A DNA stretch of 64,000 nucleotides, taken from Polytrichum commune (taxonomy: Eukaryota; Streptophyta; Polytrichopsida; Polytrichales; Polytrichaceae). The stretch is from NCBI GenBank assembly GCA_950295325.1, contig OX485809.1:31386144-31450143 (forward strand), read 5' to 3'. The position numbers were made by a program, and so were the translations under genes. Under the pieces are notes generated by a model, which worked only from the letters and a program-made list of their open reading frames with translations, ran no database searches and had not been told where the DNA came from. Below, one piece after another: positions 32,651 through 63,682 of the stretch (position 1 is its first letter; every line of letters starts with the position of its first letter).

Positions 32651-32654
32651 GGTT

Positions 32655-35746: not shown

Positions 35747-35749
35747 TAA

Positions 35750-38571: not shown

Positions 38572-38575
38572 GGTT

Positions 38576-41812: not shown

Positions 41813-43486
41813 TCAAATGAGTTTATTATATTTCGCGTGAGCGTACAACTCTCTGTACATATAGTCCTTCGGATCCATGTATCTTTCGCCTATCGGATTA
41901 CAACTAAGGAACCGGGGCACGGGTAGTCCGCTCCCCACGAGCGTTTGAATGTACTTAAGTAGGTCTAACAAAAAGCGGTCTCGGACCTTCTCGACCGTCC
42001 ACGTGGGGCAAACTATGAAGTTCGAGGTCGGGTTCAAAATGTTTTTGGAAGCGCTGTCGTCCACCATCAACGTGTTGTCACGGGTGGGGCGAACGTCGTA
42101 GGGACAGCTGACCATGGTCGGACGCTGGTCCCATACGACTGGCTTCAAGACCTTAAGAAATTGGTTTACGGCGGGGTTGTTGGGCTTCTTCACAACCCTG
42201 CCCTCGGGGGTGTATAATGTTTTACAAGAATCCTGTCCTAGGACCAAGCACGGGGGTTGGAGTCCCTTGAAGATGAACTCCACGACGGCCTGGGTATTCT
42301 CGGACTTCATGGAGCTCCAAATGATCACCCACCATTTGGATAGGGCGCCCTGTAGGAAGCGCCGAAGGGATGGGCGGAGGTACACTAGCTTGCTTTTGAT
42401 GTATGCGGGGGGTCCATCGTAGTTGGCGTCCTCGGGCTTGCAGAAAGGCACCGTAGGGACCCTCGGACAATGCACGCACTGGACAAGGACCCCGTTGAGG
42501 TCTAGCACGAGGAACCGGGTCTTGGGAGGCGAAGGTGGCGAGGGCAAAATCGGGGGGACCACCGCGCTGTCCTCCACACTCCTCGGAGAGGATCGGTGGG
42601 GAGCTGCGACGCTATGCTCCGAACCCTGCGGCGACGAGCGAGAGAAGGCGGACGAGGACTATGTTATGCTATGTCCATCTCAAGCAGAACGGAAATTTTG
42701 TGCAAACACAAGAAGAATTGGACCATTGGTGGCAACAAAAACATACAAGGGGAACAACATACATTGGGACACGGATGCAAACATATGGGCGCCAAAAATA
42801 ATAATTTTATTTTTACAAATCTCTATGTACAATTTGATTGGGGGGGACCGCGGTGAACGAGGGCATTCACACTACCCTAATTCTACATCTACAAAATTGG
42901 TTGCGCGCCGCCAAGGTCGAGCGTAGTCGAGTGCAGGTGAGACGAAGGGGATCGCGGGGGGGCACGTTGGGGGGAGGGGGAGCAAGTGTAGAGCATGGGG
43001 GGGGCAGGGGGTGTGCATTTCCTCCTAGCAAGGGGGACACGACCACGCCAACAAGACAATGACCCAGGAAGTTTGGGTCGGTCGACCCAAACTGGGGAGG
43101 GCTCAGTGTATTACCTCGCCCTGGTCATGTCTCGACGATGTGGAAGCCTCCACCGTCCCCGCTGCCCCGCCTCTCTCGCCACCGCCTTCTCCGACGACGT
43201 CAGGAACCTTCTCCTGCAAACGATCGGCATCGGGCCCTTGTCCTAAACCAATCTCCGCATGTGCATCATGCATGCGTTCATCGATTTGGTTAGGAGTAGA
43301 GGTATCACCAGGCCCTTGCAGGCCTTCAACATCTAGCATGGCCGTGTCTAGTTGACACCCATGTTGGTCAAGGGAGGACTGCGCTGCAACGGGGTTTGGG
43401 TCGCCCGACCCAAACTGTCCTGCATCTGGAGAGGGCCCTTCGGACACTCCAGTGGATGGTGGGTTTGGGTCGGTCGACCCAAACAT
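41813..43486 (-). CDS. FCP1/NIF-like HAD phosphatase-fold protein (exons 43115-43486 and 41813-42625)
   Basis: Model of 394 residues. Exon 1 (124 codons, ATG 43486) is Gly/Asp/Ser/Pro-rich. It ends GAG/GTAATA, and exon 2 follows a pyrimidine-rich CCGCAG acceptor; the join is phase 0. The second exon contains the FCP1-homology landmarks: FLVLDLNGVLV (Asp166 of the DxDxT motif, second Asp replaced by Asn168), LRPSLRRFL then VIIWSSM (about 218-230), and LMVDDSASKNILNP with the metal-binding Asp pair (313-314). In the family, the first motif takes the phosphate from phospho-Ser. The Asn change makes catalysis uncertain, so a binding or degenerate role is possible. The start is uncertain: the ATG is only 15 bases after the stop of the upstream gene and lies at a palindrome that would be translated (FGSTDPN). 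The intron holds another palindrome. Confidence 0.55.
43071..43092. repeat. 22-base palindrome in the intron of the FCP1-like gene
   Basis: Perfect arms GTTTGGGTCG and CGACCCAAAC around a GT centre, 22 bases inside the intron from the 5' splice site at 43114/43115. Confidence 0.85.
43394..43484. repeat. two 22-base palindromes within the exon 1 model of the FCP1-like gene
   Basis: Copies at 43394-43415 (centre CC) and 43463-43484 (centre GT), both with perfect arms. In the exon model they encode FGSGDPN and FGSTDPN. The motif has no stop codon in any of the six frames, so it is tolerated in coding sequence. Confidence 0.8.
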
Positions 43487-43501
43487 CCTGGGGTCGTCCG
43501 C

Positions 43502-46500
43502 TTAGTGAGGGGGCGCCATGACTATGGGGGGCCGAAGTGGTGGAGGGCCCAAAGGGGAGGAGGCTCCAGAGACGCGCCAGATGTTGGGGTCATCCACTTG
43601 CTGGACCGGCGCGTACGGAACTTGGTGGGGCCGAATCAAGTGCTGGAAGCTGAAAGACGATTGCGGCACAGGCTGCTGAGGGATGCTCTGCGGAGGGAAG
43701 CCGGGGGGCAAGTGCGGGAAGGAGCTGGAGGGAGCCACCACCAAACCCTGCGCCCACATTCCTTGTATCACTTGTGATATCAATTCGGCGTGGGACGGAG
43801 GTTGGGCCATCGCCCTCTGTCGCTCCTGCTCCAACAGGAGAGCCCTCAGCTCTGCTACCTCGTTCCGCATTGAGGGCTCTTCAGCGGCAACCTTCTGCAG
43901 ACGGACGCGTTGCTCCTCATCCCTCCTCATCTTCTCGTTCGCCTCCTCCACAGTCAGGACCTCGGGTTTCACCCTAACCATGCCAGCGAACGCTGTCGGG
44001 GAGGGGGGATCTGATCTGAGCCGTTTGGCGAGCTCAATATCATCGTCGTCCTCGCTGCTTATGGCAATGGTCTCCTCCACGGAGTAGTCGCCATACAGCT
44101 TCTTCCCCTTCAACTTCCTTCTCTCCCTGAACGTGGCGGTCGCGTCCCTGGAGTACATGTCCCGTGCATCGTCCACAGTCAGGACGGGCACGAGCTTACT
44201 CTGCGGGGTTGCCGCCCGCATCGCCTTCTTCCGTTGAGGGGCTTCGGATTGTTGCGTGAAGCCCGTTGCCCCTTCCTCGACGTCGCCTTCCTTCTCCGCC
44301 TCCTCGTGTTCCTCTGCTTCCTCCTCCTCCTCCTCAACCTCGCCACCTTCTGTGCGGGACGGATTGCCCGGATGCAACCCGACCAGAGGTTCGGGAACTT
44401 GGGTCGTGGCCCTCATGGCCATTTCCTCCGGGTTGATGCGCCTCACCCTATCAAGAGGGTTTTCGCCACCCTGAACAACCTCGTCGACGTAGCTACCCGG
44501 GATCCAATCGAGGATGTCCATCTTCTTCGCCAGCGATTTTTGCACCCTATAAAATGGCAGATCGCCATCCTCTATGTAGGAGTATATATTCAGCCCCGAC
44601 ATCTACACAATCCAAGTTATAGGGAAATTAGAATTTGTCGAGGCAGTCACATATACAAGACTAAGTGAAATGTGTAGTTTGGGCCGGTCGACCCAAACCT
44701 GCAAAAAGCCTAGTTTGGGTCGGTCGACCCAAACCTGCAAAGAGCCTAGTTTGGGTCGATCGACCCAAACTGCTTACGAGCTATAGAAAGTCACTTACCA
44801 TAGCAGCATAGACAGGTTTTGAGCCTCCGAAGACGTTGAAGATGCAGTCCCCTCTCCTCGTCAGCGTTCTCATCATTCTCATGTAAAATTCCATCCGCAG
44901 CTCATCTAAAGGATAGTTCGCGTATTTAGCCTCGTCGTAGAGGCACTTGTTGGCACCCAACCCTTCTGGAACTTGGAAGAGTTTGTCCATCCGGGATATA
45001 GGGTGGTTCGGCACCTTCAACAACTCCGCTTTGTACACGAAGTACAAACACAAGACGTTGACGAACTTGGTCTTCTTGTCCCTCAACGTCGTGTAAGCCC
45101 CCTCCGCCGGTGCGGCGATGTAGTGAGACTTGGAGACTGCATACTCCGGCTGCAGTTTCCGGACAAGCTCGTACACCTGCTCCGCCCTCCTATCCTCGAC
45201 TATCCAAAGCCAGATATCTACCTCCCTGAACTTAGGGCTTGCATAATCGACGAACTTAGATAGGAAGGGGTCATAGAAGAGGGTGCTCATTGTGCCCTCA
45301 AATGAGCTTCCAGGAATATTCCTGAAATCAATCATCCCAAAAGGAAAGCGGTCCCTTGCTTTCGTCCTTATCGCCATTCTGGCGTCCTGACCTGGCCAGC
45401 CCTGAATTTTCAAAGGCTCGAAGGTGACAAGGTTGAAGTAAGCGTCCCCTTCAAACTTGACAATCTTCTTCTCCTTGATGAAGTTCGAGAACGCACGCGT
45501 TGTGTGATCCGGAAGCGCCCGGTTCTTCCCACCCTTCACCATCTTGGCCCGCAAGAAGTCGTCCCCCGCTTCCCTTATTAGAGCCGCCATGGAGGCACTG
45601 GTGAACTTATATTCATCTTTGAATGCTCTCCAGTTAGCCTCATGAACCTCGCCGTCCACGACAATATTCCTCTCTGGCACCAATTTATGCAGCTCCTGCA
45701 CGATAGTCGTTTTCTTTTTCCTGTTCTCCGTCCATTCCTTCATGGTGTAGCATGAAGGAACGAAGGATTTGGGCTTTTGGAAGACAATCTTCGGGTGCAC
45801 CCAACACCTCTTCGCCGTGGGTGCCACGTGCAGGATGTGCGATGCCGCCTTCTCCACCTCCGTCTCTGACAGACCTTGAAGAGTTCTAAAGAACTCTCTC
45901 ACGAGAGGCTTCATCTGCTTGAAGCGCGAGGCCAGGCTAAAGAAAGCGCCAGTGTCGGGGTCGATTAAATCCCCCGTCTCGTGCTTTTCAAACACGGTTT
46001 TCCACTTCCTCCAAACTGAGTCCGATGCTGTAATCAAGTAAATCTCCCCCTTGAGGTCGCTGTATTTCTTTTGCTTGTGGCTCGAATTATCAATGGAGGA
46101 GAATTTGTTGATCATTTGGTATTTGAAATCCTGCACGTGAACAAAACAGAACATTTGAATGCGTGTTAGATATGTACATGTGATTTCCAAACCATATCAT
46201 GACCAACATCTACAACAAGAGTTTGGGTCGATCGACCCAAACTAAAAAAAAACACAAGACTGCAACAGTTGTTTGGGTCGATCGACCCAAACTAAATAAA
46301 CAAGGCTGCACCAGGAGTTTGGGTCGGTCGACCCAAACAATACTCACCTCCCACTTGGGATTCTTGTCCTTTGCATTCTCCCTCTCCTTGGGAGGCCTAC
46401 CATAGAACTCCCACACCTCCCGCGAGGCCATGATATTCCTTATCCAGGAAGCTTGGTAAGCCCTCTTCTTGTTTCCCATATTGAAGTACCGGGAGATGTC

Positions 46501-47673
46501 GCTGAGCTTGGTCTCGTTGTCAGACCACACCACCAGTGCCTTCCAAACCTTCAGCTTTTCCTTCTGATTGTTGGGATCATCCCACTCATTCATGAGTTGG
46601 ATTTTCTTGGATGCCTCCACGCTGTGTTGGCCGTCTATCAGCCAAAAATCGCCCTTCTGAATTGTTGGCCACATTTCAGGTGTAGGCATTTTCTTGAGAC
46701 CCTGTGGCATCACTACAATCGTTTGCATGTCGTCTTTAAACTGCTCGCAAACGATCTGCGCGATTATCCAGTCAACGTAGGCGTCCTCCTTTGCCCGGAC
46801 ACACTTCTCCGGTGGCGCTAGATGGCACTGGCTGATATTCACGTCGAACTTGAAATCCCTGCCCATGAAAAAACAGTGGGAGCATTTCATCGTGAAATTG
46901 TTCACAATTTTCTGCAGCTCCCCTGCATCCACCTCTTCGCCTGGCTTCGGCATGCGCATCTCCGGTGAGACTGGCTCGTCAGTCATCACAGATGACTCTC
47001 TCGCCCTCTTGGATGGAGTTGTTTGACGGCTCCCAGAAGGTGTAGGTGTCTCACTATTCGTAGGTGTTTGGGAGGGAGTGGTCCTACGCGAGTCAGCCGG
47101 TACTGGTAGCGGCATCCTCACCGATTGAGGTCTTGACGACCCTGCTCCTTCCTCTGTGGGAGCTTTCCGCCTCACAGGTTGCTGTGATTTGGTTTTGCTT
47201 TGCAGGCCCCTGTTCAGCACGGTTATTGCATGTTTTAGTTTTGTGAACCGGCTTGAGACCTTGGTATTCGATGTACTCCCATCGATAAATATTGTCTCCG
47301 GCTTGATAACTTCCGGTTCGACACAGGACTCTCTTGCATAGAGTGCGTCGAAAGGCTCGGAGAACTGGTGCATGAACATATGCGCGTTCTGCACAGCCGA
47401 GTTCTCGAGGATGACGTCGGTATAGTCTCCAAGAGACTGTACCGATGCGACCTCCCATCCCGCAAGAGTCGCCCAGGTGTGTTTCTCCATGGTTCCCACC
47501 TTGACAACAAAAATCATTTTGTATGTTGAGGCTTTGACTACTTGAATAGACCAAGCGAGGACAAGCCCGTCCTTAGGGGAATAGGAGTCATCCTGCGGGG
47601 TTTCGTGCTCCTGCCACAACATGTCCGGCGCAGGCATGAACCACCTTTCGCCGGGTCTTTTCTTTGGAGCCAT
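43502..47673 (-). CDS. ParB/DGQHR-like plus methylase-like protein (exons 46348-47673, 44799-46130, 43502-44602)
   Basis: Three minus-strand exons, 1326, 1332 and 1101 bases, both introns phase 0 with consensus ends (GAG/GTGAGT...GTGCAG and ATG/GTAAGT...GTGTAG). Product 1252 residues. Residues 160-245 are Ser/Thr/Pro-rich and disordered. Residues about 275-405 hold DFWLIDGQHSVEASKK (DGQH 347-350), resembling the DGQHR/ParB-like core of DNA-associated bacterial proteins. Around 845-920, DELRMEFYMRMMRTLTRRGD and FNVFGGSKPVYAAM, then a GLNIYSYIEDGD segment spanning intron 2, resemble motifs X, I and II of beta-type N4/N6 DNA methylases. A clear DPPY/DPPW catalytic motif is not visible (FYDPFL at 727-732 is the nearest). 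The tail has an acidic stretch (973-996), a Glu/Arg-rich probable coiled coil and a Pro/Gln-rich end. The ATG directly follows a TTCTTACAG acceptor, so a 5' leader exon is likely. Confidence 0.6.
44677..44770. repeat. three 22-base palindromes as a 36-bp tandem repeat in intron 2
   Basis: Copies at 44677-44698 (GT centre, one arm mismatch), 44713-44734 (GT) and 44749-44770 (AT) start exactly 36 bases apart, with the spacer CCTGCAAA-AGCCTA repeated. They fill the middle of the 196-base intron of the methylase-like gene. Confidence 0.9.
46221..46338. repeat. three 22-base palindromes in intron 1
   Basis: Copies at 46221-46242 (AT centre), 46271-46292 (AT) and 46317-46338 (GT), all with perfect arms, spaced 50 and 46 bases. 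They lie within the 217-base intron of the methylase-like gene; the last ends nine bases from the 5' splice site. Confidence 0.9.
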
Positions 47674-47699
47674 CTGTAAGAAAATAATGTGCAAGGTTA

Positions 47700-47721
47700 G
47701 TTTCGGTCGTTCGACCCAAAC
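47700..47721. repeat. 22-base palindrome in the leader of the methylase-like gene
   Basis: Arms GTTTCGGTCG (one mismatch) and CGACCCAAAC, centre TT, ending 27 bases before the ATG at 47673, just upstream of the putative acceptor. Confidence 0.75.
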
Positions 47722-47960
47722 ATCTATGACATGAATAGGTTTAGGTGGATTGTGTATTTTTATATTTCAGCATCATTTGTAATGATAATAAGAATGTTGT
47801 GATTATTGGGTGGATTTGCATTTTATATTGTTTGTGACATGCAGGATTCCTTGATACTTTTCCTTGATACATTCCTTGATTATTATTTTGGGTTGATGTG
47901 AATTTTATATTGATGCAAAATATCATGGATTTCTTTATGAGTTTATAATTAGAAGACTTT

Positions 47961-48084
47961 GTTTGGGTCGCTCGGCCCAAACATGATGCTTTGTTTTGTG
48001 TTTGGGTCGAGCGACCCAAACAAGGGGCTGTGTTTGGGTCGGTCGACCCAAACAATAGGCTGTGTTTGGGTCGTCTCCCCAAAC
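47961..48084. repeat. four 22-base palindromes upstream of the methylase-like gene
   Basis: Copies at 47961-47982 (centre CT, one mismatch), 48000-48021 (AG), 48032-48053 (GT) and 48064-48084 (imperfect, one base short). Starts are 39, 32 and 32 bases apart. Confidence 0.85.
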
Positions 48085-48239
48085 AGTATTATTTTAATAT
48101 ATTTTTTAAACTTGGCATGTAGCATATACAATGCTTATGCATTGTGTATGCTACAACACCGTGAATCTACAAACACATATTGGTTAAAATAAAATACAAT
48201 ACCTTTCAAAGATGTTGTGCAGACAATTTGGAGTAGAGC

Positions 48240-48640
48240 AGGTTGTTCTTCCAATAATTCTCAATATCAAACAAACTGTGAGAAAGTTCAATGAGAAACT
48301 TTCAAACAACTATCAACTCTCTCAAACAGCTCTTGGATCTCTCAACCAACTCCTGAATCTCACACAGAACTACTGAATCTCTCAAAAGACTTCGAAATGT
48401 CTAAACTAACTCCTGAATCTCACACACAACTACTGAATCTCTCAAAAGACTTCGAAATGTCTAAACCAATTCCTGAATCTCACACACAACTACTAAACCT
48501 CTCAAAAGACTTCGAAATGTCTAAACCCACTCCTGAATCCCTCACAAAACTACTGAATCTCTCAAACGACTTCGAAAACTCTCAAACAACTCTTGATACT
48601 CTTAAAGAACTCTTGAATTTCACAAGCACTCCTAAAACTT
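48240..48640. repeat. 60-bp minisatellite (CTCTCAAA/CTGAATCT type)
   Basis: Units of 60 bases containing CTCAAAAGACTTCGAAATGT and CTCCTGAATCTCACACACAA are repeated about three times (48370-48560) with decayed copies on both sides. Because 60 is divisible by three, the plus strand shows an open frame (48397-48846) with a 20-residue repeat of MSKPTPESHTQLLNLSKDFE type. I do not count this frame as a gene: it has no domain and lies in the presumed upstream region of a minus-strand gene. Confidence 0.65.
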
Positions 48641-48699
48641 CCAGTACAAACACCTGGACCTCCCAAACAGAAGCTTTATCTCCTACACAATGTTCTACT

Positions 48700-49200
48700 A
48701 ACTTCCCTCAGCACTTTCCAACACTCTTCAACAGTCTTGGACTAATTTCCTTCACACTCACGCTCGAAAACCCTCCTCCGTATGTTTCTGTTTCTTTCAA
48801 AATAAACCCTAACTTCCAAGATTGCACTGCGGCTATTCTATTGTAGAGCAAGAGGAAGGAGGGAAATAGAAGAATTAGAAGAAAGCAAAACGCGGGTGAA
48901 TGTGAAGAAAACCCACACCAAGCCTGAATCGCCGTGGCGCTTTGCGAAAGCGGCGCTTCAGGAGAGGCGGCGCTTCCAAGCAAAGCGCGGAGCGTAAGCT
49001 TGGCGCGGAGAGAGAGAGAGAGAGAGAGAAAGAATGAAAAAATGTGACGGTTGGGGTTTTGTTTGCCTCGGGAATTGGCCCCCAACCGCATGAATAGGGT
49101 GCCCACAGGTTTAGGGCACCCACGGAAACAGGGTTACAGGGAACCCTAAAACCTAAAGCTTGACTCTAAACCCTTAGCGGGCCTACCTCTTTAAGAGTAC
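48700..49200. other. spacer with GC-rich hairpin and (GA)n tract
   Basis: At about 48934-48986 GCGCTTTGC and GCAAAGCGC face each other about 35 bases apart, with GGCGCTTC repeats between. A (GA)n microsatellite follows at 49011-49028. No gene is supported. This could include the promoter or first exon of the minus-strand methylase-like gene, but no TATA box is evident. Confidence 0.35.
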
Positions 49201-49375
49201 ATAGGCTATTTGCCTCATAGCATAGGTTGCATTCTACAATATCAACTTTTTGTAAGTTGAAAACCTTTTGAGTTTGTAAGTTCCTCGCCAATTGCCTTCA
49301 AAACTAATTTTTAGTAGGTTAAAATCCTTCATATCTTTTAATGTTGTAGGTTTTAAAATCAAAATTTGAGTACTA

Positions 49376-49446
49376 AGTGGGATCCTTGGCAGGAATTGAA
49401 CCTGGCTAAGCCTTTCACCACGTTTGAAGGCCAAGGATTAACCAAG
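49376..49446 (-). repeat. possible tRNA-derived sequence
   Basis: Minus strand reads TGGTTAATCC, then CCTTCAAACG (anticodon-loop-like) and the B-box-like GGTTCAATTCC before GGATCCCA. The 5' and 3' ends do not pair as an acceptor stem. At best a decayed tRNA or SINE head. Confidence 0.25.
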
Positions 49447-49779
49447 TCTTTTTTAAAGAGTTGATTATAAGTTATGAAAGGTTGCTAAAATTCAAATGAG
49501 TTCAAGGGTGAAAGTTCTCACCATGTTCTCATTCAACCTCTACTCTTCCTGCAAGATATAGCCTAAAGATATGTACTTAGGCCAACTAATTTCCCAATTT
49601 GAAGAAGGATGAATGGCTAAAATCCTCTCTTTTAAAAAAAATTTAGGCAAAATTTCCTAAATGTTTTTTATCACATAGGTTGATATCCTATGTTTTTAAA
49701 TTGTCCATAGGCTCTTTGTCCTACACTTTCAAAATTTTATAGGCTAAGTCACTAATTTTGTAGGCTGCATTTGTTTTAA

Positions 49780-49975
49780 TCGGTATATTCATTAATTTGG
49801 GATTTTTTCGGCATTTTGAGAAAGTTACAAATATAAGAACATGGATAAAATCGCACGTACATTGGAGAATGTTGTAAGATGCAAATACTTTGAAGCGGGT
49901 GTTCATATCAAGAACGCAATTAAGATCTCATATGAAGATGGTTTAGGTAGGACGACCCAAACATTACACTATGTT
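49780..49975 (-). pseudogene. 5' fragment of a second copy of the 40.36-kb gene
   Basis: About 190 bases match 40325-40515. They include the ATG (49814, reading MPKKSQINEYT before a stop), the leader phrases ATAAGAACA and GTAAGATGCAAA, and a palindrome counterpart at 49941-49962. The rest of the gene is absent, so this is a truncated duplicate. Confidence 0.6.
49941..49962. repeat. partly decayed 22-base palindrome
   Basis: GTTTAGGTAG, centre GA, CGACCCAAAC. The right arm is the strong consensus; the left arm matches the decayed form at 40574 and 40674. This copy links the two classes of the motif. Confidence 0.65.
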
Positions 49976-49989
49976 GTTGTGGTTCATAT

Positions 49990-51890
49990 ATTAATTTGAG
50001 AGAAGAGAAAATCTCAAATTAGCAAATTTTAGGGTTTAGGTTCTTTTGGACCCTGCTCTAAACCCTTATTAGTTTTTTCAAAAGAACTATGGAGTACCCT
50101 AAGGTGCTACATAAAATGTGTTATTCTACAAAACTAACCATTTATATAGCCAGCGCATTCTTACAACAAAACTTTATGCTAAACTAATACTTATCCCCTA
50201 CTTACATGACACCATACCCTAAATTTTCCAAAATCATTGAAGGCATTGGTTTCTCTTTTGTTTGAGCATGTTAGAAAAACCATATAATTGCGTTATATTT
50301 AACGATGTAACCATTCACATTTAGTCTTTACCAATGATGCCAACAATTCACACGATATTGAATGAAAAAAAAAAGATTACACACACCCCCCAACATGTGG
50401 AACAATTTAGAATAATTGAGTGTGGAGCCTAATAAATGAATACCTTCCCCAACTGCATTTTGCAAGGGTTTTGAAATGCACGATCCTTATTTGAAAATGC
50501 GAACATGCTCAAGTTTTAAGTACATCCCTTAGATCGTGACTTTCACGAATCACATAGTCGCCAATAAATCATGGTTCATGATATATTTAATATATAGATT
50601 GTGATATAAGAGTAAATGGGATAAGCACAACATCAAATGAAGCCATTCAAGCAATCATGTTGTTATTCCCTGTTCCTTCCATGTATATTAGATGATGGCG
50701 CAAGATAAAATAGATGTTGTTTGTATATGGGGGCATCAGTGAACCACAACTACATTTGGTGTTTAGGGTTTAGGGTTTAGGAGATAGGAGATAGGAGATA
50801 GGGTTATAACATATTAATCTATCCAATGTCAATGTATAACATTGTCTTACTCGTGAGAAGAGTCTTATAGGAAGGTTATAGTGAAGACGATGTTGATTAT
50901 GTTAATTTGTTATTTGAGACGTTTAAACGCGATATATTGATTGGTCGTGTGTTTAATAAATATATTAAACGACTAATATGTTCATATTTAATATAAACAT
51001 ATATTTAATATATAGAATGTCATGTAAAAGTAAATCGAAGAAGCACAACATCATGTTGTTATTCATTGTTCTCTCCACATGTATTAGATAATGGAGGAAG
51101 ATATAACAGATATTGTTTGCATAATATTATGAAGAAGAGTCTAATCGGAAGGTCATAGTAAATACAATCTTGATCATGTTAATATGTTATATGGGACGTT
51201 TAAACATGATATCCTAATTGGTTTTGTATTTAGTCAATGCGTATTTCATGTTGTGGATGTTATAAGGGTTTAGGGTCCAATCTTGGATGTTTTGCTCTCA
51301 CACATTAGTAAACTTGAAGTGAACTTGAGGATGGATTCAAGTAACATTAAAAGATTGAACTAGAAAGGGACATTGGTAGTTAGTATCCCCTTAACAACGT
51401 CCACATACGTTCGTCATTGCCACTCTTGCATGCGAGATAATAGAGCAAGGTTCTAGGGTTTAGGGTTTAGGGGGGACAAATAAATAATTCTATTCATCAT
51501 GACAATGGCCTCAAGCCTTGGAAACTCTCTCATAATTGCAGCCTCCAAATGGCCCAAACCCCACCTAAATAGGTTTACACTTGAAAGCATTGAATGGAGT
51601 TGTGTTTGGGTCTACATATTGGTTAAAATATACCTTGATGATATTTGAAAAAATTAATGTGGCCGCCACCCTTCCTCCCAATGGCGTATGTCATATCCAC
51701 ACAAAACAAAACAAATAGATTAAATAACATAGACTAAGTCATATGACGGCTGGGGTATCAGAGGGGCATTGATAGATGCGCATTTTTCTACTATAAATAG
51801 AAAACGGGGAATTATGTCAGGAGGTTTGAAATAACCTCTGCAAGAGAAGAAGGCGGGGAAGGCATCCAATGACTAAGTCTGGGAAGCGGA
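49990..51890. other. gene-free stretch
   Basis: AT-rich DNA with two short TTTAGGG tracts (near 50761 and 51452) and a loosely duplicated block (50580-50720 resembles 51000-51130 around the phrase CACAACATCA). No gene seen. Confidence 0.4.
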
Positions 51891-51899
51891 GGTGGATAG

Positions 51900-51906
51900 T
51901 ATAAAG
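51900..51906 (+). promoter_or_regulatory. TATA-like box left of the retrotransposon
   Basis: TATAAAG followed by a GC-rich then pyrimidine-rich leader-like sequence. It could be the promoter of the plus-strand gene whose start codon lies at 63882, now separated from it by the 10.8-kb insertion. Inferred from position only. Confidence 0.3.
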
Positions 51907-52147
51907 GGGCGCACCCCCCAAAAGTCGGTCCTTTTTTTCTCTTCTCCCGCTGTGGAATTCGTAGAGAGAACTCTTAGTAGGAGCTGTACTTCAAGGTTCG
52001 TGCATGCTGCCGTTCATGAGCACTTATCCATAGCATGCAAGTTCATGAGCACCTATCCACAACATGCAAGCCCACCGTGAACTTTGCAATGAGCTCAAAT
52101 TCAACACACCACGCAATATCCGCCGCATTATACGCCGGATTTTGTGG

Positions 52148-52152
52148 TGTAC
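52148..52152. repeat. target site duplication, left
   Basis: TGTAC, repeated exactly at 62987-62991 on the other side of the retrotransposon. Confidence 0.9.
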
Positions 52153-53372: not shown

Positions 53373-53605
53373 TTCATGAAGGAGCTGGGTTTGTTTAGTT
53401 AGAAAGTAAAGAGCTGGGTTTATGAAGGACCTGGGTTTGTTTAGTTAGAAGCTAAGGAGCTGGGTTCATGAAGGAGCTGGGTTTATGAAGGAGCTGGGTT
53501 TGTTTAGTTAGAAGCTAAGAAGCTGGGTTTATGAAGGAGCTGGGTTTATGAAGGAGCTAGGTTTATGTAATTAGAAAGTAAAGAGATGGGTTCATGAAGG
53601 AGCTT
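53373..53605 (+). repeat. internal minisatellite of the LTR
   Basis: Repeats of GAGCTGGGTTTATGAAG alternate with TTTGTTTAGTTAGAAGCTAA. The same array is present base for base in the 3' LTR (about 62395-62627). Confidence 0.7.
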
Positions 53606-53964
53606 AGTAGATAGCCTACCTAATTAGCTTATAGACAAGTAGTTAGTTACATTATGCTAGTTAGTGTTATGTGTGGCTTTCACAAGTAAATGTATTTGAG
53701 ATTGACTATAGAGAATAGTGTTTTTTTAACACTTGCATCCTCTCTTTAAAAATAAACCACGTGCACAAATTAATGGAGAATGTGGAGCACTCTCGCGATG
53801 GCAAGACAAAGGAAGCAAAGACCAAAGTTAAATCCAAGACCACTTGAAGGGTGAACCTTGCACTATGGACTCATCCAAGTCCAAATCCAATACCGCGGAG
53901 GAATGTGAGCCCAAACCCACTACTCGGACTACGGACGCTTAAGGGTGGGGGGTTTGGCCTCACA

Positions 53965-53990
53965 TAATTAGTGCGTCTGCCGGGAGCGAA
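53965..53990 (+). other. probable primer-binding site region
   Basis: The bases right after the 5' LTR (TAATTAGTGCGTCTGCCGGG) fall where the tRNA primer binds. They partly resemble the GGCGCCGT-type sites of plant Ty3/gypsy elements that use tRNA-Asp or tRNA-Arg, but the match is imperfect and the primer tRNA is not certain. Confidence 0.4.
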
Positions 53991-54873
53991 GCGGAAGGTA
54001 GTTACAAGACTTGGAGGCGACTAGGGGACTTGGAGGCAACTAGGAAAAATTGGAGACACAAACTTGAGAGAAGGGAAGGAGCACCCGAAACTCGGTAAGT
54101 ATTCTCTCTTTGGGTTACATTTGAATTCATTGTATTTCAACTATTCCTTGGAATGAATTGCATTGTCAATTACGCAAATTCATTTTTAAGGAAGGAGCGC
54201 GGCGAAGGTACGTCCTCAACCTTTTTGGGGATTTGCTAAGAACTTAAAAGGAACCTATAACCGAGTAGCTCATTAAAACATTAGAGGGTAAATTCACCTT
54301 AGGACATTGAACTTTGACACTCACCTCGGGGTGAGTCTCAAAGTTTTGGGAGTTGTCATTTCATGCTCTAGATTAAATTAATATTTCACAAAGTTTATGG
54401 TGTTGTTACATTGAGTCACGATTGAGGGGAGTGCTAACTCACAGGGGGATGCGATTGCTCAAGGTATGTTTATTTCTTCAAAGTGAACTCATTAACTAAT
54501 TAAGGAATGCCTTTTGTACTCGTGATTGTTGTTATCCGTTGTAGAGGGTAATTCCCGAATTGTGGATGGTGTGAGAAGTTGAAGGGTGAAGCCTCGACTT
54601 TTAACATAATCTACTCGGAAGGTCACCCCCTCACAATCGGTATTGTGGTGAGTGTTAATTTGCGGGAAGGTGCGGAGGTGATGCTCCGACTTAACCAAAA
54701 AATTAACATGAACATGCCTATCCCCTATTGGGATTCTTTCACCTAAGTGGGCTTGCAGGTTCTTTTCCTCACCTCCTAAAAAAATTATAACCACACCAAG
54801 ACAAGTGAAAATATTAAGAGGGGAATTGCTAGGATTATGTGTGGTCAAGTGAGGGTCGATCGATTCTTATGGA

Positions 54874-57800
54874 ATGCAAGGTAGGACTCGCTCACAAAAA
54901 CCAAGTTTGATAGTAGGACTAGAGAAATCTACTCGAAAGAGGCGGTCCTCTAAAATCAGTGATAGATTAGAACAAGATAATGTTAGAATAGAGAGTTGTT
55001 TGAACGTCGAACCTAGGACTAGGTCAATTCTAGACACCTTAGAACTTGGAGCTCAACTTGAAGAGGAGATCACTCCCTCCAAATTGAGTGGTGAAACTTC
55101 TTCGGAAAATTACACACTTAGAGAAGAATTCCCGGTAGAAGTTGATAGGGGATTGTTGAATAGTTCACCGGTCACCATGGCCGAGGAACGGGGGATGGAT
55201 CCACCACCCATACCCCCAATTCCGCCCATACCTCCTATACCTCCAATAGACCCATTGGTTAGGCCAAGAGGCCTACCAATTGTGGTTCCACAAAATTTAG
55301 CAGCGATGGATATGCCATCTCATCTCCCTAAATTTTATGGGACCAAGGATGAGGACCCCTCTCGGCACATGGAACGGTATATCGAACGGTTGGCTAGCTT
55401 CCTCATAACCGACCCGGGTTATTGGTTAGTGTGGTTTCCTACCACTCTAGAGGGGGAAGCCTATGAATGGTATCGGGATCATGCCGAGGGACATTTTAGG
55501 GGATGGGAACAATTACAAAGGGAGTTTCTTAACGAATTTAGGCCGGAAGTGGGTCAAAGTACCGCATTAAGGGCATTGTCGTCATTGAAGCAAGGAAGGG
55601 AGGAAGAAATTTCGGCTTACATTAGGAGGTTTGATTTAGTGTGCACTAGATTTGTGGGTACCATGCTCAACGACGACACGCTAAAGCAATTTTTCATTCA
55701 AGGGTTTTTTAAGTCCGGAACTATTAGGGGTGTTCTAGAAAGGAATCCCTTGACCTTGGCGGATGCCAAGCGTGCGGCTAGAGATATTGAAAACTTGGAT
55801 AAAGATCACGAAAGGCTATGGAGAAGGGAGGATGAATTGATCCCACAATTCATCCCCATACGCCCTAGGGTGGTAGCGGTAGAACCTGCTAAGTATGAGA
55901 ACCAAATTCCATATGCCATTGTGGACACCGGTCCCCGACCTTTAGCGGTTAGGGAACCGGCACCTCTTTTGGCACTACCGGCCCCTAGAACGGATCCACA
56001 CTTGGAGGAGGTTGAGAGAAGACTAGGTGCTAGCCAACTAGGATTCCAAGAGGCTATGATAAAACAAATGCAAAGCCTCACGGATCAAATGTCATTAATG
56101 ATCCGGAGTCAACAACCGGGGCCTCCACCCCCGGTTGAGTCGGGTAGGCATTCTTCCGGATTATGGTGTGTCCAATGTGGCCAACCGGGCCACACGCGTC
56201 AATTTTGTAGAAGTGGACAAAACCGTGACCAAAGAGGAAACGGTAACCCACCTCAACAAAATCAACGAGGTCAAACGCCACCTCACTATGGAAATGGAAG
56301 CAATAGAGGACCACAACCTAGAGGGCAAGGTGGCCAAAATTTAGAGAAGAAGGAATTTCATCCCTTTTGTGGAAGGTGGCACGCTCAAGGACAATGTTGG
56401 TCCGAAGGTCAAGAGTTTAATTGTAGCAATTGTGGAGGAAGTCATCCCTCGGATACGTGTCGCCAACCGGACAAAATAATTAATGTCCCTTACCCGGTGG
56501 CTAATCCACAACAACAAGCAAGGGATAATATGCGAGGTGCTAGGCCACAAGGAGTACCGGCCAATGAACTTAGGCCACCTAACTTATACTATGACCATAG
56601 TAATGCTAGGCAAACTTTTCATCCACCGGCGGGCTTGCAAACTACAACCGGTTACATTCCAATACAAAATAGACAAGGAGTTCCACCTAATGGTAGTAAC
56701 GGGAGACAAGCGCCTCCAACGGATCCGGGACCATCTAACTCCCAAGATGTTAGGTTCATGGATGGAGTGTTGGAGGCCACATGTGATGACATGCTTCCTC
56801 TTCCAACGAGAATTGGAGAGGAGCAAAGTCAATGGCCTCCTCACACCAATGCTATTACATATGAGTTAGTGAAGGGTAAGGGTGTGGTTGAAGAAGCACC
56901 TGCACTAGCGGTAACTACTAGGGCTAGAAGAGGGGATGCCCCGTTGGAGGTAGGAATAGGAGAGCAAGGAAATTACTCTTCGGATGAAGAGATTAATCTC
57001 TCCGAGTTGGATAGGGTAGCTAGAAGAGCTACTAAGGATGTGGAGAGGGAAAATATAATTTTACAAGATAGGGAGAGGACTAATGCGGTACATGACTTGG
57101 ATAATAGCGATGTGGGTGAATGGGAAGGACCGGGGGTTCCCGTAGACGAATTCGACGTAGTGGGTAATTCTAAGGTGGAAAGATCTACCGGGTACGACTT
57201 GTGGGCGGACCTTAGTACACTCAAGGCGGATATTACTTTCGGCCAACTATTGGAAATTTCACCCACGGCAAGGAAAACATTAAAGGAGGGAATGCCGGTA
57301 CACAAGAGGATGAGGAAGGTGAAAGCTAAAATAGCCGCTAGGATCCAATCACAAGGTGGAAGACACGTGAAAGCTATAGAAATAGAAGTTGTTATAGTAG
57401 ATAAGGTGGTTCCTAATGTGCTAGTCGACGGAGGGAGTAGTCTAAATATACTACCGGAGGATACTATGAAAAAATTGGGACTTGGACTCACGGGGCCTTC
57501 ACCTTTGGTCATAAATATGGCAAATCAAAGTTCGACTACGCCTTTGGGGATGATCAAGGATTGTAGAATGACTACGGGAGGTGAGGAGTACTTGGTCACC
57601 TTCCATGTCATTAAAATGCACTCCAACAAGGACACCTTCCCCATTTTGCTAGGTAGGCCTTGGTTGCGGATGGCGAATGCTATGGTCAATTGGGGTGGAC
57701 CTAAACCATCCATCACTTATGGTCCGGAGGGTAATAGGGTCATAGTGTCCATTGGTTCATTAGAAGGATGGATGGAGAAGGAGATGTATTTGCCATTGGA

Positions 57801-60800
57801 GAAGGAAATTGATGACTTAAACGAGAATGAGATTGGCAAGGCATTGGTGGGAGTCGTCCATCCCGAAGGTCAAAGGGTTGTTATAGATTCGGGCTCGGGA
57901 AGTCTAGGTCCTAATTTTTACAATTATGGGGATAATGGGGATTATGCCCAATGGCTAAGGGAGTACCCCGAGTCCGAGGTTGATGTAATGGTTACATTTC
58001 ACCAAGTAGGCTTAGGGAGTGAATTTCCTAGTGTTAGTTTAGGAGAGGGCTCATTGTTGGAGCCATGTGAGGTGCTCACCGAGGAAGAGTGGGTTAGCGG
58101 TGGGTTAACACCTTGGGTAGATGACGTGGAAGAGGGTGAGGTTAGTTTAATTCATGTAGATGGGACTCAAGAGGAGGATGTGATTATTGAGTCATCGAAA
58201 TTGGAGGAGCCTTTCAATTTCAAGACCACGTCTACGGGGATAGTTGTAGGTCAAGATGTGAAAGATTACCCCAATGTGCCTTCCGATTGGTATCGGAACA
58301 AAGAGGAACAAGCACATGTGTCGGAAGCGGATTGGCGGTACGTGGATGTGAAATTAAAGAATGGAAAAACCCGACAAATGAAGATGGGCTCCAAATTGGG
58401 GGAGAAAGAGGTTAGGGAGTATAGCAATTTGGTGGATGAGTTTAGTGATACTTTTGCATGGTCCTACGATGAGCTTAAGGGAATTCCTAGGGAAATGGTA
58501 GAGCACCGGATTCCTTTAATTCCGGGGGCGAGGCCAATTAGACAAAAGGAGAGGAGGATGAATCCTCAATTGCAATTGTTGGTGAAAGCGGAATTGGAAA
58601 GGTTATTGAAGGCCGGGTTTATCAAGCCGGTGGAAATCACGGATTGGGTTTCTCCTATGGTCTTAGTAAAGAAAAAAAATGGGAAATTAAGGGTTTGTGT
58701 CGACTATAGGAAATTGAATTCGTGCACACAAAAGGATCACTTCCCCTTACCTTTTATCACCTTGTTGCTTGAGGAGGTTGGAGGTCATTCGCGATATACC
58801 TTTATGGATGGGTATGCGGGTTATAATCAAATTTCCATAGCCCTCCAAGATATCCATAAAACGGCTTTTACTACACCTTGGGGTACTTTTGTGTGGGTAG
58901 TGATGCCATTTGGGTTATGTAATGCCCCGGCTACTTTCCAACGATTAGTAATGTATATCTTCACCGACTTGTTGTTCAAATCCATGACCGTCTTTGTGGA
59001 CGATTTTAGCACACAAAGTAATGTGGATGATCACCTACATTGTGTTAGGGAGGCATTGGTTAGGTGTAGGAAGATGAGGTTAGCATTGAACCCGGATAAG
59101 ACATTTTTGGGAGTGAATAAGGGAGTGTTGTTGGGTTATGTCGTTAGTGAGAAAGGTAGAGAACCCGATCCGAATAAGATTGCGGCCATAAGCGACTTGG
59201 CAACTCCAACCAATTCCAAGGGGATCTCTAAGTTGTTAGGACATGTGGGATGGTACCGGGAACTTATTCCTAATTTTTCAAAGATAGCGGTGCCCATTAC
59301 CCATTTGCTCAAAAAGGATGTCAAATTCGAGTGGACGGATGCTTGTCAAAAAGCCTTTGAGGAATTGCGGGATAGGTTGAGCACCTATCCGGTGTTGATA
59401 CCACCCAATTGGGGTAAACCTTTTCACGTCTATTGTGATGCTAGTAATGTGGCAATAGGGAGTGCGCTTTGTCAAGCAACGGGAGAAAAAGAGAAGGATC
59501 AACCTATAGCTTATGCGAGTAAGCAATTGACCCCCGCCGAAAGAAACTACTCTACAACGGAGAGGGAGTGCCTAGCCATGGTGTTTTCCGTTAAAAAGTT
59601 TAGGCATTACCTCATGTGCAACCCGGTTGTATTTTTTGTTGACCACATGGCTATCAAGTATCTAATTAACAAGGCGGAGTTAAGTGGTAGGTTAGCTAGG
59701 TGGGTTTTGTTATTAGAAGAATTCGACTACACGGTGGAATATAAACCGGGTCGTATGCATTTACAAGCGGACCACTTGTCTAGGTTGTCGGAGGAGATAG
59801 GAAAAAATCCGGTAAATGATATGTTAGTAGATGATAGCCTCTTTGTGGTCACTTCTACACCGGAGTGGTATGCGGGCATAGTGGAATTTCTAACAACCCA
59901 CAAGTTGCCCAAAGAGTGGACAAAAGAAGAGAGAAGGAAGGTGAGGGTAAATAGTAGGCAATTTGTTGTAGTGGGCCATAGGTTGTTTAGAAGGGGGTCC
60001 GATGGTATTTTACGACGATGCGTGTCAAAAACGGAGGTTGAAGCGATTTTAATCGCTTGCCACGATAGCGCTTGCGGCGGTCACTTCTCGGGTCAACTCA
60101 CCGGGCAAAAAATACTTAGAGCGGGCTACTTTTGGCCTACACTATTTAAGGACGCCCATGACTATGTAAGGAAATGCGACGCTTGCCAACGGTATGCCCG
60201 AGACGACCTTAGAATGGAGATGCCTTTACATGTATCATTACCCTTAATTCCTTTCGAAAAATGGGGCATCGACTATGTGGGTGAGGTCCATCCCCAATCT
60301 TCAAAAGGAATGAAATATATTGTGGTGGCAACCGAGTACCTCACCAAGTGGGCGGAAGCCAAAGCGGTGAAGACCGACACGGCGGAACACGCGGCAACAT
60401 TTATGTACGAAAACATAATTTCGCGGTTCGGGGTGCCGAAGATCCTAGTAAGCGATAGGGGTACTCACTTTTTGAATGACTTGATTCGAGAGATGACAGA
60501 GAAATTTAAAATTGATCACCGGAAGACTACTCCCTACCACCCACAAACCAATGGACAAACGGAAAGGGTTAACGAAATTTTGGTGAGTATACTACGTAAG
60601 ACGGTTATAGACTCGAAGCGGGATTGGGATACGAAACTAACGGCGGCACTTTGGGCATACCGTACAACCTATAAGGTAACTACGCGTGCTACACCATTTT
60701 CCTTAGTCTATGGTCTTGAAGCGACACTACCAATCGAATATGAAGTCGAGTCACTTAGGGTGGCCGTGAGTACGAGACTTACCGAAAGTCAATCCTTACG

Positions 60801-61113
60801 AAATCGCCTAACCGATTTGGAAGCACTTGACGAAGGGAGGAGAATGGCGGCTCAACATATTGAGGCAATCCAAAGAAGGAGAAAGATTACTTTCGACAAA
60901 CGACATAAGAGAAGGGCCCTAACACCGGGAATGATGGTCATGATTCAAGACGCACGAAAGCTTGAATTTCCGGCGAAATTCAATGCGGTATGGTTAGGAC
61001 CTTACCTTGTCTATGAGGTCTTTCCTAATAATTCAATTCAATTGGAAACGTTGAATGGTGAGCTCTTTCCTACCCGTACATCGGGAAGTAGATGTAAGGA
61101 GTACCGAGCTTGA
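54874..61113 (+). CDS. gag-pol polyprotein of the LTR retrotransposon
   Basis: 2079 residues in one frame. A Pro/Ile-rich linker lies near 110-125. The Gag core is about 165-262 (capsid-type helices with EWYRDHA and FLNEFRPEVG). A CCHC zinc knuckle CVQCGQPGHTRQFC lies at about 432-445, with a further Cys-rich segment near 498-530. The aspartic protease active site is VDGGSS near 848-860, with DGG in place of the usual DSG or DTG. Reverse transcriptase spans about 1230-1420, with the catalytic FVDD near 1373 (YVDD in many relatives). RNase H starts near 1518 (YCDAS). The integrase HHCC zinc site lies at 1730-1771, and the DD35E triad is formed by Asp in GIDYVG, Asp in VSDRGT and Glu in QTERVNE, with exactly 35 residues between the last two. 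No frameshift or stop between gag and pol; all catalytic positions are present, so the element could be active. Confidence 0.95.
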   Translation: MQGRTRSQKPSLIVGLEKSTRKRRSSKISDRLEQDNVRIESCLNVEPRTRSILDTLELGAQLEEEITPSKLSGETSSENYTLREEFPVEVDRGLLNSSPVTMAEERGMDPPPIPPIPPIPPIPPIDPLVRPRGLPIVVPQNLAAMDMPSHLPKFYGTKDEDPSRHMERYIERLASFLITDPGYWLVWFPTTLEGEAYEWYRDHAEGHFRGWEQLQREFLNEFRPEVGQSTALRALSSLKQGREEEISAYIRRFDLVCTRFVGTMLNDDTLKQFFIQGFFKSGTIRGVLERNPLTLADAKRAARDIENLDKDHERLWRREDELIPQFIPIRPRVVAVEPAKYENQIPYAIVDTGPRPLAVREPAPLLALPAPRTDPHLEEVERRLGASQLGFQEAMIKQMQSLTDQMSLMIRSQQPGPPPPVESGRHSSGLWCVQCGQPGHTRQFCRSGQNRDQRGNGNPPQQNQRGQTPPHYGNGSNRGPQPRGQGGQNLEKKEFHPFCGRWHAQGQCWSEGQEFNCSNCGGSHPSDTCRQPDKIINVPYPVANPQQQARDNMRGARPQGVPANELRPPNLYYDHSNARQTFHPPAGLQTTTGYIPIQNRQGVPPNGSNGRQAPPTDPGPSNSQDVRFMDGVLEATCDDMLPLPTRIGEEQSQWPPHTNAITYELVKGKGVVEEAPALAVTTRARRGDAPLEVGIGEQGNYSSDEEINLSELDRVARRATKDVERENIILQDRERTNAVHDLDNSDVGEWEGPGVPVDEFDVVGNSKVERSTGYDLWADLSTLKADITFGQLLEISPTARKTLKEGMPVHKRMRKVKAKIAARIQSQGGRHVKAIEIEVVIVDKVVPNVLVDGGSSLNILPEDTMKKLGLGLTGPSPLVINMANQSSTTPLGMIKDCRMTTGGEEYLVTFHVIKMHSNKDTFPILLGRPWLRMANAMVNWGGPKPSITYGPEGNRVIVSIGSLEGWMEKEMYLPLEKEIDDLNENEIGKALVGVVHPEGQRVVIDSGSGSLGPNFYNYGDNGDYAQWLREYPESEVDVMVTFHQVGLGSEFPSVSLGEGSLLEPCEVLTEEEWVSGGLTPWVDDVEEGEVSLIHVDGTQEEDVIIESSKLEEPFNFKTTSTGIVVGQDVKDYPNVPSDWYRNKEEQAHVSEADWRYVDVKLKNGKTRQMKMGSKLGEKEVREYSNLVDEFSDTFAWSYDELKGIPREMVEHRIPLIPGARPIRQKERRMNPQLQLLVKAELERLLKAGFIKPVEITDWVSPMVLVKKKNGKLRVCVDYRKLNSCTQKDHFPLPFITLLLEEVGGHSRYTFMDGYAGYNQISIALQDIHKTAFTTPWGTFVWVVMPFGLCNAPATFQRLVMYIFTDLLFKSMTVFVDDFSTQSNVDDHLHCVREALVRCRKMRLALNPDKTFLGVNKGVLLGYVVSEKGREPDPNKIAAISDLATPTNSKGISKLLGHVGWYRELIPNFSKIAVPITHLLKKDVKFEWTDACQKAFEELRDRLSTYPVLIPPNWGKPFHVYCDASNVAIGSALCQATGEKEKDQPIAYASKQLTPAERNYSTTERECLAMVFSVKKFRHYLMCNPVVFFVDHMAIKYLINKAELSGRLARWVLLLEEFDYTVEYKPGRMHLQADHLSRLSEEIGKNPVNDMLVDDSLFVVTSTPEWYAGIVEFLTTHKLPKEWTKEERRKVRVNSRQFVVVGHRLFRRGSDGILRRCVSKTEVEAILIACHDSACGGHFSGQLTGQKILRAGYFWPTLFKDAHDYVRKCDACQRYARDDLRMEMPLHVSLPLIPFEKWGIDYVGEVHPQSSKGMKYIVVATEYLTKWAEAKAVKTDTAEHAATFMYENIISRFGVPKILVSDRGTHFLNDLIREMTEKFKIDHRKTTPYHPQTNGQTERVNEILVSILRKTVIDSKRDWDTKLTAALWAYRTTYKVTTRATPFSLVYGLEATLPIEYEVESLRVAVSTRLTESQSLRNRLTDLEALDEGRRMAAQHIEAIQRRRKITFDKRHKRRALTPGMMVMIQDARKLEFPAKFNAVWLGPYLVYEVFPNNSIQLETLNGELFPTRTSGSRCKEYRA

Positions 61114-61174
61114 CTAGGCAACTTACCCTTGGAGCAAGAGATGTTTGGATTCATCCCCCGATGGTCGCCAATTA

Positions 61175-62986
61175 TGTGAGCCCAAAAGGGTGCCCACATT
61201 TAGTCTTAGACCCTTGAAACGTTAGTTGATGCACTTTGAAGTAGCATGTTACTTCACAAAAATATAAAAAGAGTGAAATGTTAGTCTTAGAAGTACCATG
61301 TTGTAAGAGGCTAGGATGTGAGTTGTTATTGTGTTTTTACCTTCGGAAGGATTTGAGTGAATGAGGATAGGTAAGAAGAACTTGGATTGAGTAGTTAGTG
61401 AGTAGGCTAGTACAAATGGATGGAGACAACCAAAGTGACTCAAGAGGCAAGTGCATTCGAATTGGGATGAATGGAGGATCACATGGAGCGCACAAGTGGA
61501 CCACCTCATCATGGCCATTTAATGGGGAAGGCCCAAGGAAGAATGCAAGGTGGAGGATAAGCAAATTCTCAAAGCACCAATCAAATCACGAATTAAGCAT
61601 CGTGGTTTGAATTAAGTGGTGAGCGACGATTTGGGAAAGTAAGGGGAGAAAGTTATGGCGGCGGAAAGCGAAGGAGGCTAAGTTTGGGTTGAAGCATCCC
61701 AAGTTTGGTAAAGTGTGGTAGGTAGAAAGCCAAGGCTAGTTAAATGTTCGAATTAGGATCCTTGTTGATCATTTGAGGGAGGAAGACTTAGAAGATAGGA
61801 TTGGCGCCTACTAAGTAGGAGGAAATCTCAAGGGCTTATCGTGAGCCTTGAGGGTGCTCACCCCCTCAAGCTTACTATATAATCCCTCATTCTTCCCTCA
61901 CTCATCCTCTCTTTCCTTTGTGCTCCAAGGCACCCCACGAGTTATAAGTGTGGGTGTGGGAAGCCATATTGGAGCACATGTGTGTGCTTAGTTTTTAGTT
62001 TGAGAGCCAAGGCTTGTTAGCCTTGAAGAGGGCTTGACCTCTTGGTAGAATTAGTGTTGACGTGAAGGATTTTAAAGTTAATTCATGATTCCAATTTATG
62101 GTACTTAAAGTTCATGTTTTGAATACACGTGGTTGCAAGTTCCATGTTTAAGAGTTGAGCACTTGATGTTGTGATGAGTGCAAAAATATACTTGTGTGGA
62201 TTAGTTGGTCTTAGTGAAGTTAGGAAATTCTCTCTCCCCCTCTCCTCTCTAGGATTTTAGGATCTTAGGATTAGAGAAGAATTGTGTGATTAGAAAGGGG
62301 TTGTTAGTAGAATTAGGGAAATTAGGTAGGAAGATTAGTTAAGGGCTTGAATAATTAGTGAGGTAGTTGGGGATTACAACTACAAAGTTGTGGGTTCATG
62401 AAGGAGCTGGGTTTGTTTAGTTAGAAAGTAAAGAGCTGGGTTTATGAAGGACCTGGGTTTGTTTAGTTAGAAGCTAAGGAGCTGGGTTCATGAAGGAGCT
62501 GGGTTTATGAAGGAGCTGGGTTTGTTTAGTTAGAAGCTAAGAAGCTGGGTTTATGAAGGAGCTGGGTTTATGAAGGAGCTAGGTTTATGTAATTAGAAAG
62601 TAAAGAGATGGGTTCATGAAGGAGCTTAGTAGATAGCCTACCTAATTAGCTTATAGACAAGTAGTTAGTTACATTATGCTAGTTAGTGTTATGTGTGGCT
62701 TTCACAAGTAAATGTATTTGAGATTGACTATAGAGAATAGTGTTTTTTTAACACTTGCATCCTCTCTTTAAAAATAAACCACGTGCACAAATTAATGGAG
62801 AATGTGGAGCACTCTCGCGATGGCAAGACAAAGGAAGCAAAGACCAAAGTTAAATCCAAGACCACTTGAAGGGTGAACCTTGCACTATGGACTCATCCAA
62901 GTCCAAATCCAATACCGTGGAGGAATGTGAGCCCAAACCCACTACTCGGACTACGGACGCTTAAGGGTGGGGGGTTTGGCCTCACA
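61175..62986 (+). repeat. 3' LTR
   Basis: Same length as the 5' LTR. The only difference I noticed is T instead of C in the AATACCG(C/T)GG phrase (about 62917 versus 53895). The expected purine-rich tract is not directly adjacent: the bases before the LTR read GGTCGCCAATTA, and a purine-rich GGAGCAAGAGATG lies 32 bases upstream. Confidence 0.95.
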
Positions 62987-62991
62987 TGTAC
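62987..62991. repeat. target site duplication, right
   Basis: TGTAC, matching 52148-52152. Confidence 0.9.
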
Positions 62992-63049
62992 TTGGGCGAA
63001 CCTTCACCTTTACACTAGTGTTGGCGGGTTTTGAGTCTGACCCTATGAG

Positions 63050-63682
63050 GTTTGGGTCGACCGACCCAAACCTGTCCACTAGTGTGTTAGGGTTTATGTC
63101 TGACCCTTAACAGGTTTGGGTCGGTCGACCCAAACCCCAACCCCAGTGTGTTAGGGTTTTTGTCTGACCCTTATCAGGTTTGGATCGACCGACCCAAACC
63201 CCTACGTGGTGTTGGTGGATGTACCCTTGTGAGGTTTGGGTCAGTCGACCCAAACCCCTACCCCAGTGTGGTAGGGTTTTTTTTTCTGACCCTTGTCAGG
63301 TTTGGGTCGACCGACCCAAACCACTACCTGGTGTGGGTGGATGCACCCTTGTGAGGTTTGGGTCGGTCGACCCAAACCCCTACCCCAGTGTGTTAGGGTT
63401 TTTTCCTGACCCTTATCAGGTTTGGGTCGACCGACCCAAACCCCTACCTGGTGTGGGTGGATGTACCCTTGTGAGGTTTGGGTCGGTCGACCCAAACCCC
63501 TACCCCAGTGTGTTAGGGTCTTTTTTCTGACCCTTATCAGGTTTGGGTCGACCGACCCAAATCACTACCTGGTGTGGGTGGATGTACCCTTGTGAGGTTT
63601 GGGTCGGTCGACCCAAACCCCTACCCTAGTGTGTTAGGGGTTCAGTCCGACCCTTATGAGGTTTGGGCCGGTCGACCCAAAC
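63050..63682. repeat. higher-order array of eleven 22-base palindromes
   Basis: Copies start at 63050, 63114, 63178, 63234, 63300, 63356, 63420, 63476, 63541, 63597 and 63661. Arms are GTTTGGGTCG and CGACCCAAAC; four copies have a single mismatch. The two-base centre alternates AC, GT, AC, GT through the first ten, then GT. Distances alternate between 56 and 64-65 bases in the regular part, giving a 120-122-bp unit. The flanks of the two members differ: CCCCTACCCCAGTGTGTTAGGG follows GT copies and CACTACCTGGTGTGGGTGGATG-like text follows AC copies. The frames running through the array (for example 63180-63530) are translations of the repeat, not genes. Confidence 0.95.

Follow-up and report, generated by a model that had tools for sequence, protein, structure and literature searches.

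A 22-bp palindrome with conserved arms and a free centre in a DNA transposon of Polytrichum commune, and its exchange in a sister family

Introduction

What is a 22-letter palindrome doing in the introns, the leader and the upstream region of one plant gene, and again in an array next to another? The question is raised by a window of 64,000 nucleotides of Polytrichum commune (GCA_950295325.1, contig OX485809.1, positions 31,386,144 to 31,450,143), in which an original prediction, made from the letters alone, tied this palindrome to one gene cluster and its neighbour. We report that cluster and array are parts of a single DNA transposon, here called S1, and that in a distant sister family, S2, the palindrome (m1, GTTTGGGTCG-N2-CGACCCAAAC) is swapped as a set for another one of 22 letters. 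Judged from sequence and by analogy, m1 probably provides sites for a dimeric protein encoded by the transposon, which would control or un-silence its own element in a manner resembling VANDAL/VANC.

Results

Scanning the window for m1 with up to three mismatches gave 25 matches, while 100 shuffles gave none, bearing out the stated number of at least 25 strong copies and their places. The arms had been called strictly conserved; they are very strongly conserved, but not strictly so, as 17 matches are exact, 7 have one mismatch and 1 has two. A further copy with a deletion was found by eye at about 48063-48083, and degenerate relatives with 4-5 mismatches start at 40485, 40574, 40674, 40800 and 41243. 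At up to three mismatches m1 was absent from the remainder of the window together with its 10-kb flanks (56.7 kb in total, RBCS and ELIP parts included) and from the long terminal repeat (LTR) retrotransposon inside the window, as the original prediction had noted for the RBCS, ELIP and retrotransposon parts.

The palindrome-bearing cluster and the array at 63 kb are parts of a single DNA transposon, which measures about 16.3 kb when the nested LTR element is not counted. This follows because a second copy, copy A on contig C1, aligns across both sides of the LTR insertion (97-98% identity to window positions 40321-52153, 92-97% to 62987-67481 of the extended window), and because the two copies share inverted ends and 4-bp duplications. 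Both ends of both copies carry 28-bp terminal inverted repeats (TIR; AACACTATATTCGTTAAATTGAGACTTT), flanked by target site duplications (TSD) of CAAA in the window copy and ATAA in copy A. Thus, TIR and target duplication, as expected of a cut-and-paste DNA transposon, are present in two copies with both ends read. The left end is common to the window copy and copies A, B and C. Cluster and neighbour are two parts of a single high-copy transposon, split by a nested retrotransposon. An internal direct repeat of the left end was also seen (49784-49966 versus 40328-40510, 80% identity, 9.46 kb apart). About 60 bp separate the nested element from the array's first palindrome, and the same retrotransposon family also sits inside an m1 array at another locus (locus D, C1:460001-480000, at about 15424-17744). 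An insertion preference of this family for palindrome arrays is possible.

In a comparison of the window copy with copy B, the palindrome arms are the best conserved DNA that we measured. In ten aligned sites 198 of 200 arm positions are identical, compared with 9 of 20 centre positions, 220 of 399 other aligned intron bases and 2,901 of 3,748 exon bases; for codon positions 1, 2 and 3 of exon 2 the values are 393/443, 410/442 and 247/442. A caveat to this ranking is that the arms themselves help to anchor the alignment and that the number of intron-1 sites differs, with four in copy B versus three in the window. The palindrome is also recovered from relatives in databases, listed at 31-93% identity, where peptides read through the splice donor encode it. 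The anchor was present in 37 of 44 proteins for intron 2 and in 32 of 42 for intron 1, with tails of at least 12 residues in 20 and 22 of them. Using loose patterns, the palindrome was encoded in 15 of the 20 usable intron-2 tails and 18 of the 22 intron-1 tails (shuffled tails, 0.01); strict patterns left 14 and 15. A symmetric variant suggested by the read-through peptide of P0025, GTTTCGGTCG-N2-CGACCGAAAC, has 0 copies in the genome. Compensating base changes were considered as proof of selection on the dyad and rejected as such: there is no excess for m1 (p 0.59-1.0) or for S2 sites (p 0.93-0.996), and motif 3, described below, is borderline (p 0.16 and 0.03).

In the sister family S2 the palindrome is TTTACGAACG-N2-CGTTCGTAAA, again 10-N2-10, with one or two mismatches in some copies. 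A genome search with protein P0044, which is 38% identical to the window protein, gave 80 scored copies among 1,208 candidates. We examined eleven S2 loci, three returned by the search and eight picked from the 80 listed rows and spread over subgroups. They are 35-37% identical to the window exon 2, and all eleven carry the S2 palindrome. In all 11 loci the exon-1 match is followed by the first intron-1 site at a distance of 8 nt, and in 9 of 11 loci sites lie 22-27 nt past the exon-2 match; measured in this way, the distances in the window are 12 and 33 nt. At up to three mismatches, m1 occurs 25 times in the window element, 36 times in the copy A element, 40 and 26 times in the copy B and C loci, and 17, 7 and 18 times in loci D, E and F of the M and third families described below; the S2 loci contain none. 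Conversely, the S2 motif was found 80 times in the S2 loci and in none of the others. Genome-wide, the exact S2 motif is present 2,909 times (control 0). The pattern suggests that each family may produce a protein recognising its own DNA. In the window remainder and flanks we found three S2-like palindromes at 73.05-73.17 kb (extended window 73052-73166; L021, about 9195-9309); one equals the symmetric change TTTACGGACG-N2-CGTCCGTAAA and two are close to it, and they perhaps represent a further family.

The whole genome (407.8 Mb) holds 9,231 exact m1 sites, and the reversed control gave 0. Site context was read in six loci fetched around the first 100 listed of these sites (35 loci were read in total). 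All six carry S1 or M-family genes, and in this sample we did not find a random scatter without link to these genes, which had been named as the result that would speak against the idea. In the loci read the sites stay in specific transposon families, disfavouring a simple satellite or the terminus of a miniature inverted-repeat transposable element. No m1 match was obtained in viral or in bacterial and archaeal contigs.

The M family has transposase-like open reading frames (ORFs) with a weak SWIM match below the cut-off (E 0.076). In loci E and F its m1 arrays are placed between the transposase ORFs. Arrays of m1 also precede a methyltransferase-like gene with a DGNHR segment and a DLTCSTG segment (locus F; in locus D DGNHR only, at the locus end). 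Locus D further contains a third family with GGTGTCTCGG-N2-CCGAGACACC (motif 3), arrayed in 138-139-bp units beside a methyltransferase-like gene, which also follows a motif-3 array at a second locus on C3. Motif 3 has 324 genome matches with arm position 6 free (control 0). Three fragments of the third-family gene match the M gene (30-48%, E 2e-6 to 4e-6 in a small database). A diverged relative of the M transposase (47-69% by fragment) adjoins S1 copy A in locus A (C1:2106001-2136000, at 25149-29719), and this stretch contains none of the four palindromes tested.

On its minus strand S1 carries a phosphatase exon and the gene with palindromes in its introns and upstream; on the plus strand lies a DUF7869 gene behind the 11-copy array, which we take as the transposase (Table 1). 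The gene with intronic sites models as a ParB/KorB-like domain joined to an amino-methyltransferase fold. With the ParB-like model, Foldseek returned the RK2 repressor KorB in 6 of the first 7 rows (best probability 0.99, E 0.045). The methyltransferase fold is present in the model of exon-2 residues 225-442, up to the glycine-rich segment FNVFGGSK. At the expected place of the catalytic motif [DNS]PP[YFW] we read DFRNIP, by eye and with no residue-level superposition. Because the DPPY-type motif thus appears to be replaced by DFRN, the predicted domain perhaps has no methyltransferase activity. Exons 1-3 had no significant Pfam match, a sequence search of the PDB gave nothing convincing (one chain at E 0.0024, no stretch passing), and the S1 protein had no match in viral contigs. 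In the genome the exon-2 protein was found in 95 scored copies of 92-100% identity among 1,228 candidates, as a lower bound; 72 of the 95 have no stop.

Table 1. Features of S1 and its nested element in the window; A, B and C are further S1 copies.
Feature	Position	Strand	Basis or remark
S1 DNA transposon	40323..64000, on to extended-window 67481 (L021:3624)		ends, TIR, TSD, copy comparison
Left TIR AACACTATATTCGTTAAATTGAGACTTT, 28 bp	40323..40350	+	matches reverse complement of right end
Three degenerate palindrome relatives near left end	40485..40695 (40485, 40574, 40674)		4 mismatches each
NIF/FCP1-like phosphatase exon	41813..42658	-	PF03031 E=3.4e-13; present in A, B, C
Intronic m1	43071..43092		splice sites by eye
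Two m1 (43394, 43463) in open stretch 43103-43501, probably exon	43394..43484		stretch kept in A, B, C
Exon 3, ParB/methyltransferase-like gene	43502..44602	-	junctions by eye
Intron 2, three m1, 36-bp spacing	44677..44770		counterparts: A 3, B 3, C 2
Exon 2, amino-methyltransferase-like fold in C-terminal half	44803..46130	-	model, structure matches
Intron 1, three m1	46221..46338		closest 10 nt from exon-1 end as placed
Exon 1, predicted beta-rich N-terminal domain, low-confidence linker, ParB/KorB-like domain	46349..47673	-	model
5' leader m1, left-arm variant	47700..47721		counterparts in A, B, C
Array upstream of ParB/methyltransferase-like gene	47961..48083		three copies and one deleted copy
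Two-mismatch m1 within internal left-end copy (49784-49966)	49941..49962		motif scan, self-comparison
Nested LTR retrotransposon, outside palindrome system	52153..62987	+	LTRs 99.9% identical
11-copy m1 array, immediately upstream of transposase-like gene	63036..63683		motif scan
Transposase-like gene start (on to L021 3089)	63882..64000	+	DUF7869, PF25273 E=1.4e-41 at L021:1578-3089

Discussion

The original prediction took the conserved arms around a free centre for half-sites. This reading is supported because the arms are fixed and the centre is free, compensating changes are not in excess, and at the corresponding places the sister family has another palindrome with this geometry. The direct evidence is that the sites lie in transposons, have the best conserved arms, keep the 10-N2-10 geometry and change as a set between protein lineages; the identity of the binder, dimeric binding and an outcome in expression or loss of silencing are what we infer. 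In the scheme that we consider probable, a dimeric DNA-binding protein encoded by S1 would recognise m1. The binder would most likely be the ParB/KorB-like and amino-methyltransferase-like protein from the gene with intronic sites, and it may bind the arrays in the two promoter regions as well as the intron sites of its own copies. Binding would then switch on, un-silence or autoregulate the transposase gene and its own gene.

The closest functional parallel appears to be VANC21 of Arabidopsis. VANC21 is reported to bind arrayed motifs in the non-coding regions, introns among them, of its own VANDAL element and to remove methylation; tandem repeats of VANDAL elements occupy introns and the stretch ahead of the transposase gene (PMC5735166). 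The VANDAL system, as reported, is alike in having a short motif arrayed at both kinds of place, in the turnover of tandem repeats and in a motif that differs between related families. S1 itself has its arrays both within introns and ahead of the transposase gene, and its motif changes between related lineages. However, the S1 site is a 22-bp dyad whose centre is free, the TSD is 4 bp, the candidate protein is ParB-like and methyltransferase-like in its predicted folds, and the likeness to VANC is one of layout and of lineage-specific motif change. Likewise, VANDAL elements have a transposase of the Mutator-like element type, whereas the S1 gene matches DUF7869 only.

Several observations weigh against the proposed scheme. 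No Foldseek match reached E 0.001 for either model, the best being 0.045 (ParB-like) and 0.12. The M family carries a second palindrome, in arrays of CCCTGTGCGTTAACGCACAGGG, so that motifs and families do not correspond one to one. The ParB-like domains of S1 and M gave no significant profile match (E 0.025, probability 2%; reversed 0.35) and their methyltransferase segments no match at all, so that a protein common to these two m1-sharing families is unproven. For motif 3 the position beside genes was checked at just two loci, and the exon-2 part of the comparison between the window copy and copy B uses a global alignment partly anchored by the palindromes themselves.

Alternatively, m1 could be bound by the transposase for transposition. 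The largest array immediately precedes the transposase-like gene, and degenerate relatives occur near the left end, but the good sites are grouped in introns and promoter regions rather than at the ends of the element, and the M family has the same motif with another transposase; we regard this role as unlikely. That m1 is shared by two transposon families with different transposases, and arrayed upstream of two genes, would also be expected of sites for a dimeric host transcription factor, captured by the transposon for its expression. A second host factor would then be required for the different 22-mer of equal geometry at corresponding introns of the sister family, and no m1 is present in the 56.7 kb around the element, making a host factor improbable as well. 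Much less probable are RNA hairpins with a role in splicing or in the stability of the RNA. The fixed distance of the first intron-1 site from the exon-1 match in the S2 loci would fit them, but arrays are found in promoter regions too, and without an excess of compensating changes in m1 and S2 (motif 3 being borderline) hairpins are disfavoured. None of these arguments against RNA, transposase or host-factor roles is decisive. A self-spreading palindrome of the organelle-genome type, also proposed originally, is hardly credible despite high copy number and copies within an apparent exon, since copies in the loci read do not leave certain transposon families, keep corresponding positions and are swapped as a set in the sister family.

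Returning to a transposon-encoded binder, a more specific and clearly speculative version would be plasmid-like self-marking: a ParB-type clamp with an inactive adenine-methyltransferase-like domain might load at family-specific 22-bp palindromes, spread over its own copies and keep host silencing off, while protein and palindromes co-evolve and the families ignore each other. KorB and ParB proteins have palindromic operators or parS sites, and S1 resembles them in its palindromic sites and in a predicted ParB-type domain with a DGQH motif. It differs in being a plant nuclear transposon, in the methyltransferase-like domain made continuous by predicted splicing, and in its 22-bp site. The modelled fold of exon-2 residues 225-442 likewise resembles MTA1/METTL3-14 and bacterial amino-methyltransferases, from which it differs, as judged by eye, by DFRN at the expected catalytic position. 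The Sola superfamily has 4-bp target duplications, as does S1.

If the proposed control is correct, sequence-specific control or anti-silencing would have been built a second time and independently in plant transposons, and their arms race with plant silencing would become testable outside Arabidopsis. It would also provide site families of fixed geometry with natural specificity switches (m1, the S2 motif, motif 3) and new DNA-recognition proteins with likely targets already listed. In the open-access literature we found no paper with the motif strings or with DUF7869/PF25273, none joining ParB, transposable elements and bryophytes, and, among the titles listed, nothing of this kind.

Additional Observations

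Outside the transposon, positions 19854-38615 of the window comprise three RBCS-containing segments that are 94-96% identical and partly in tandem.
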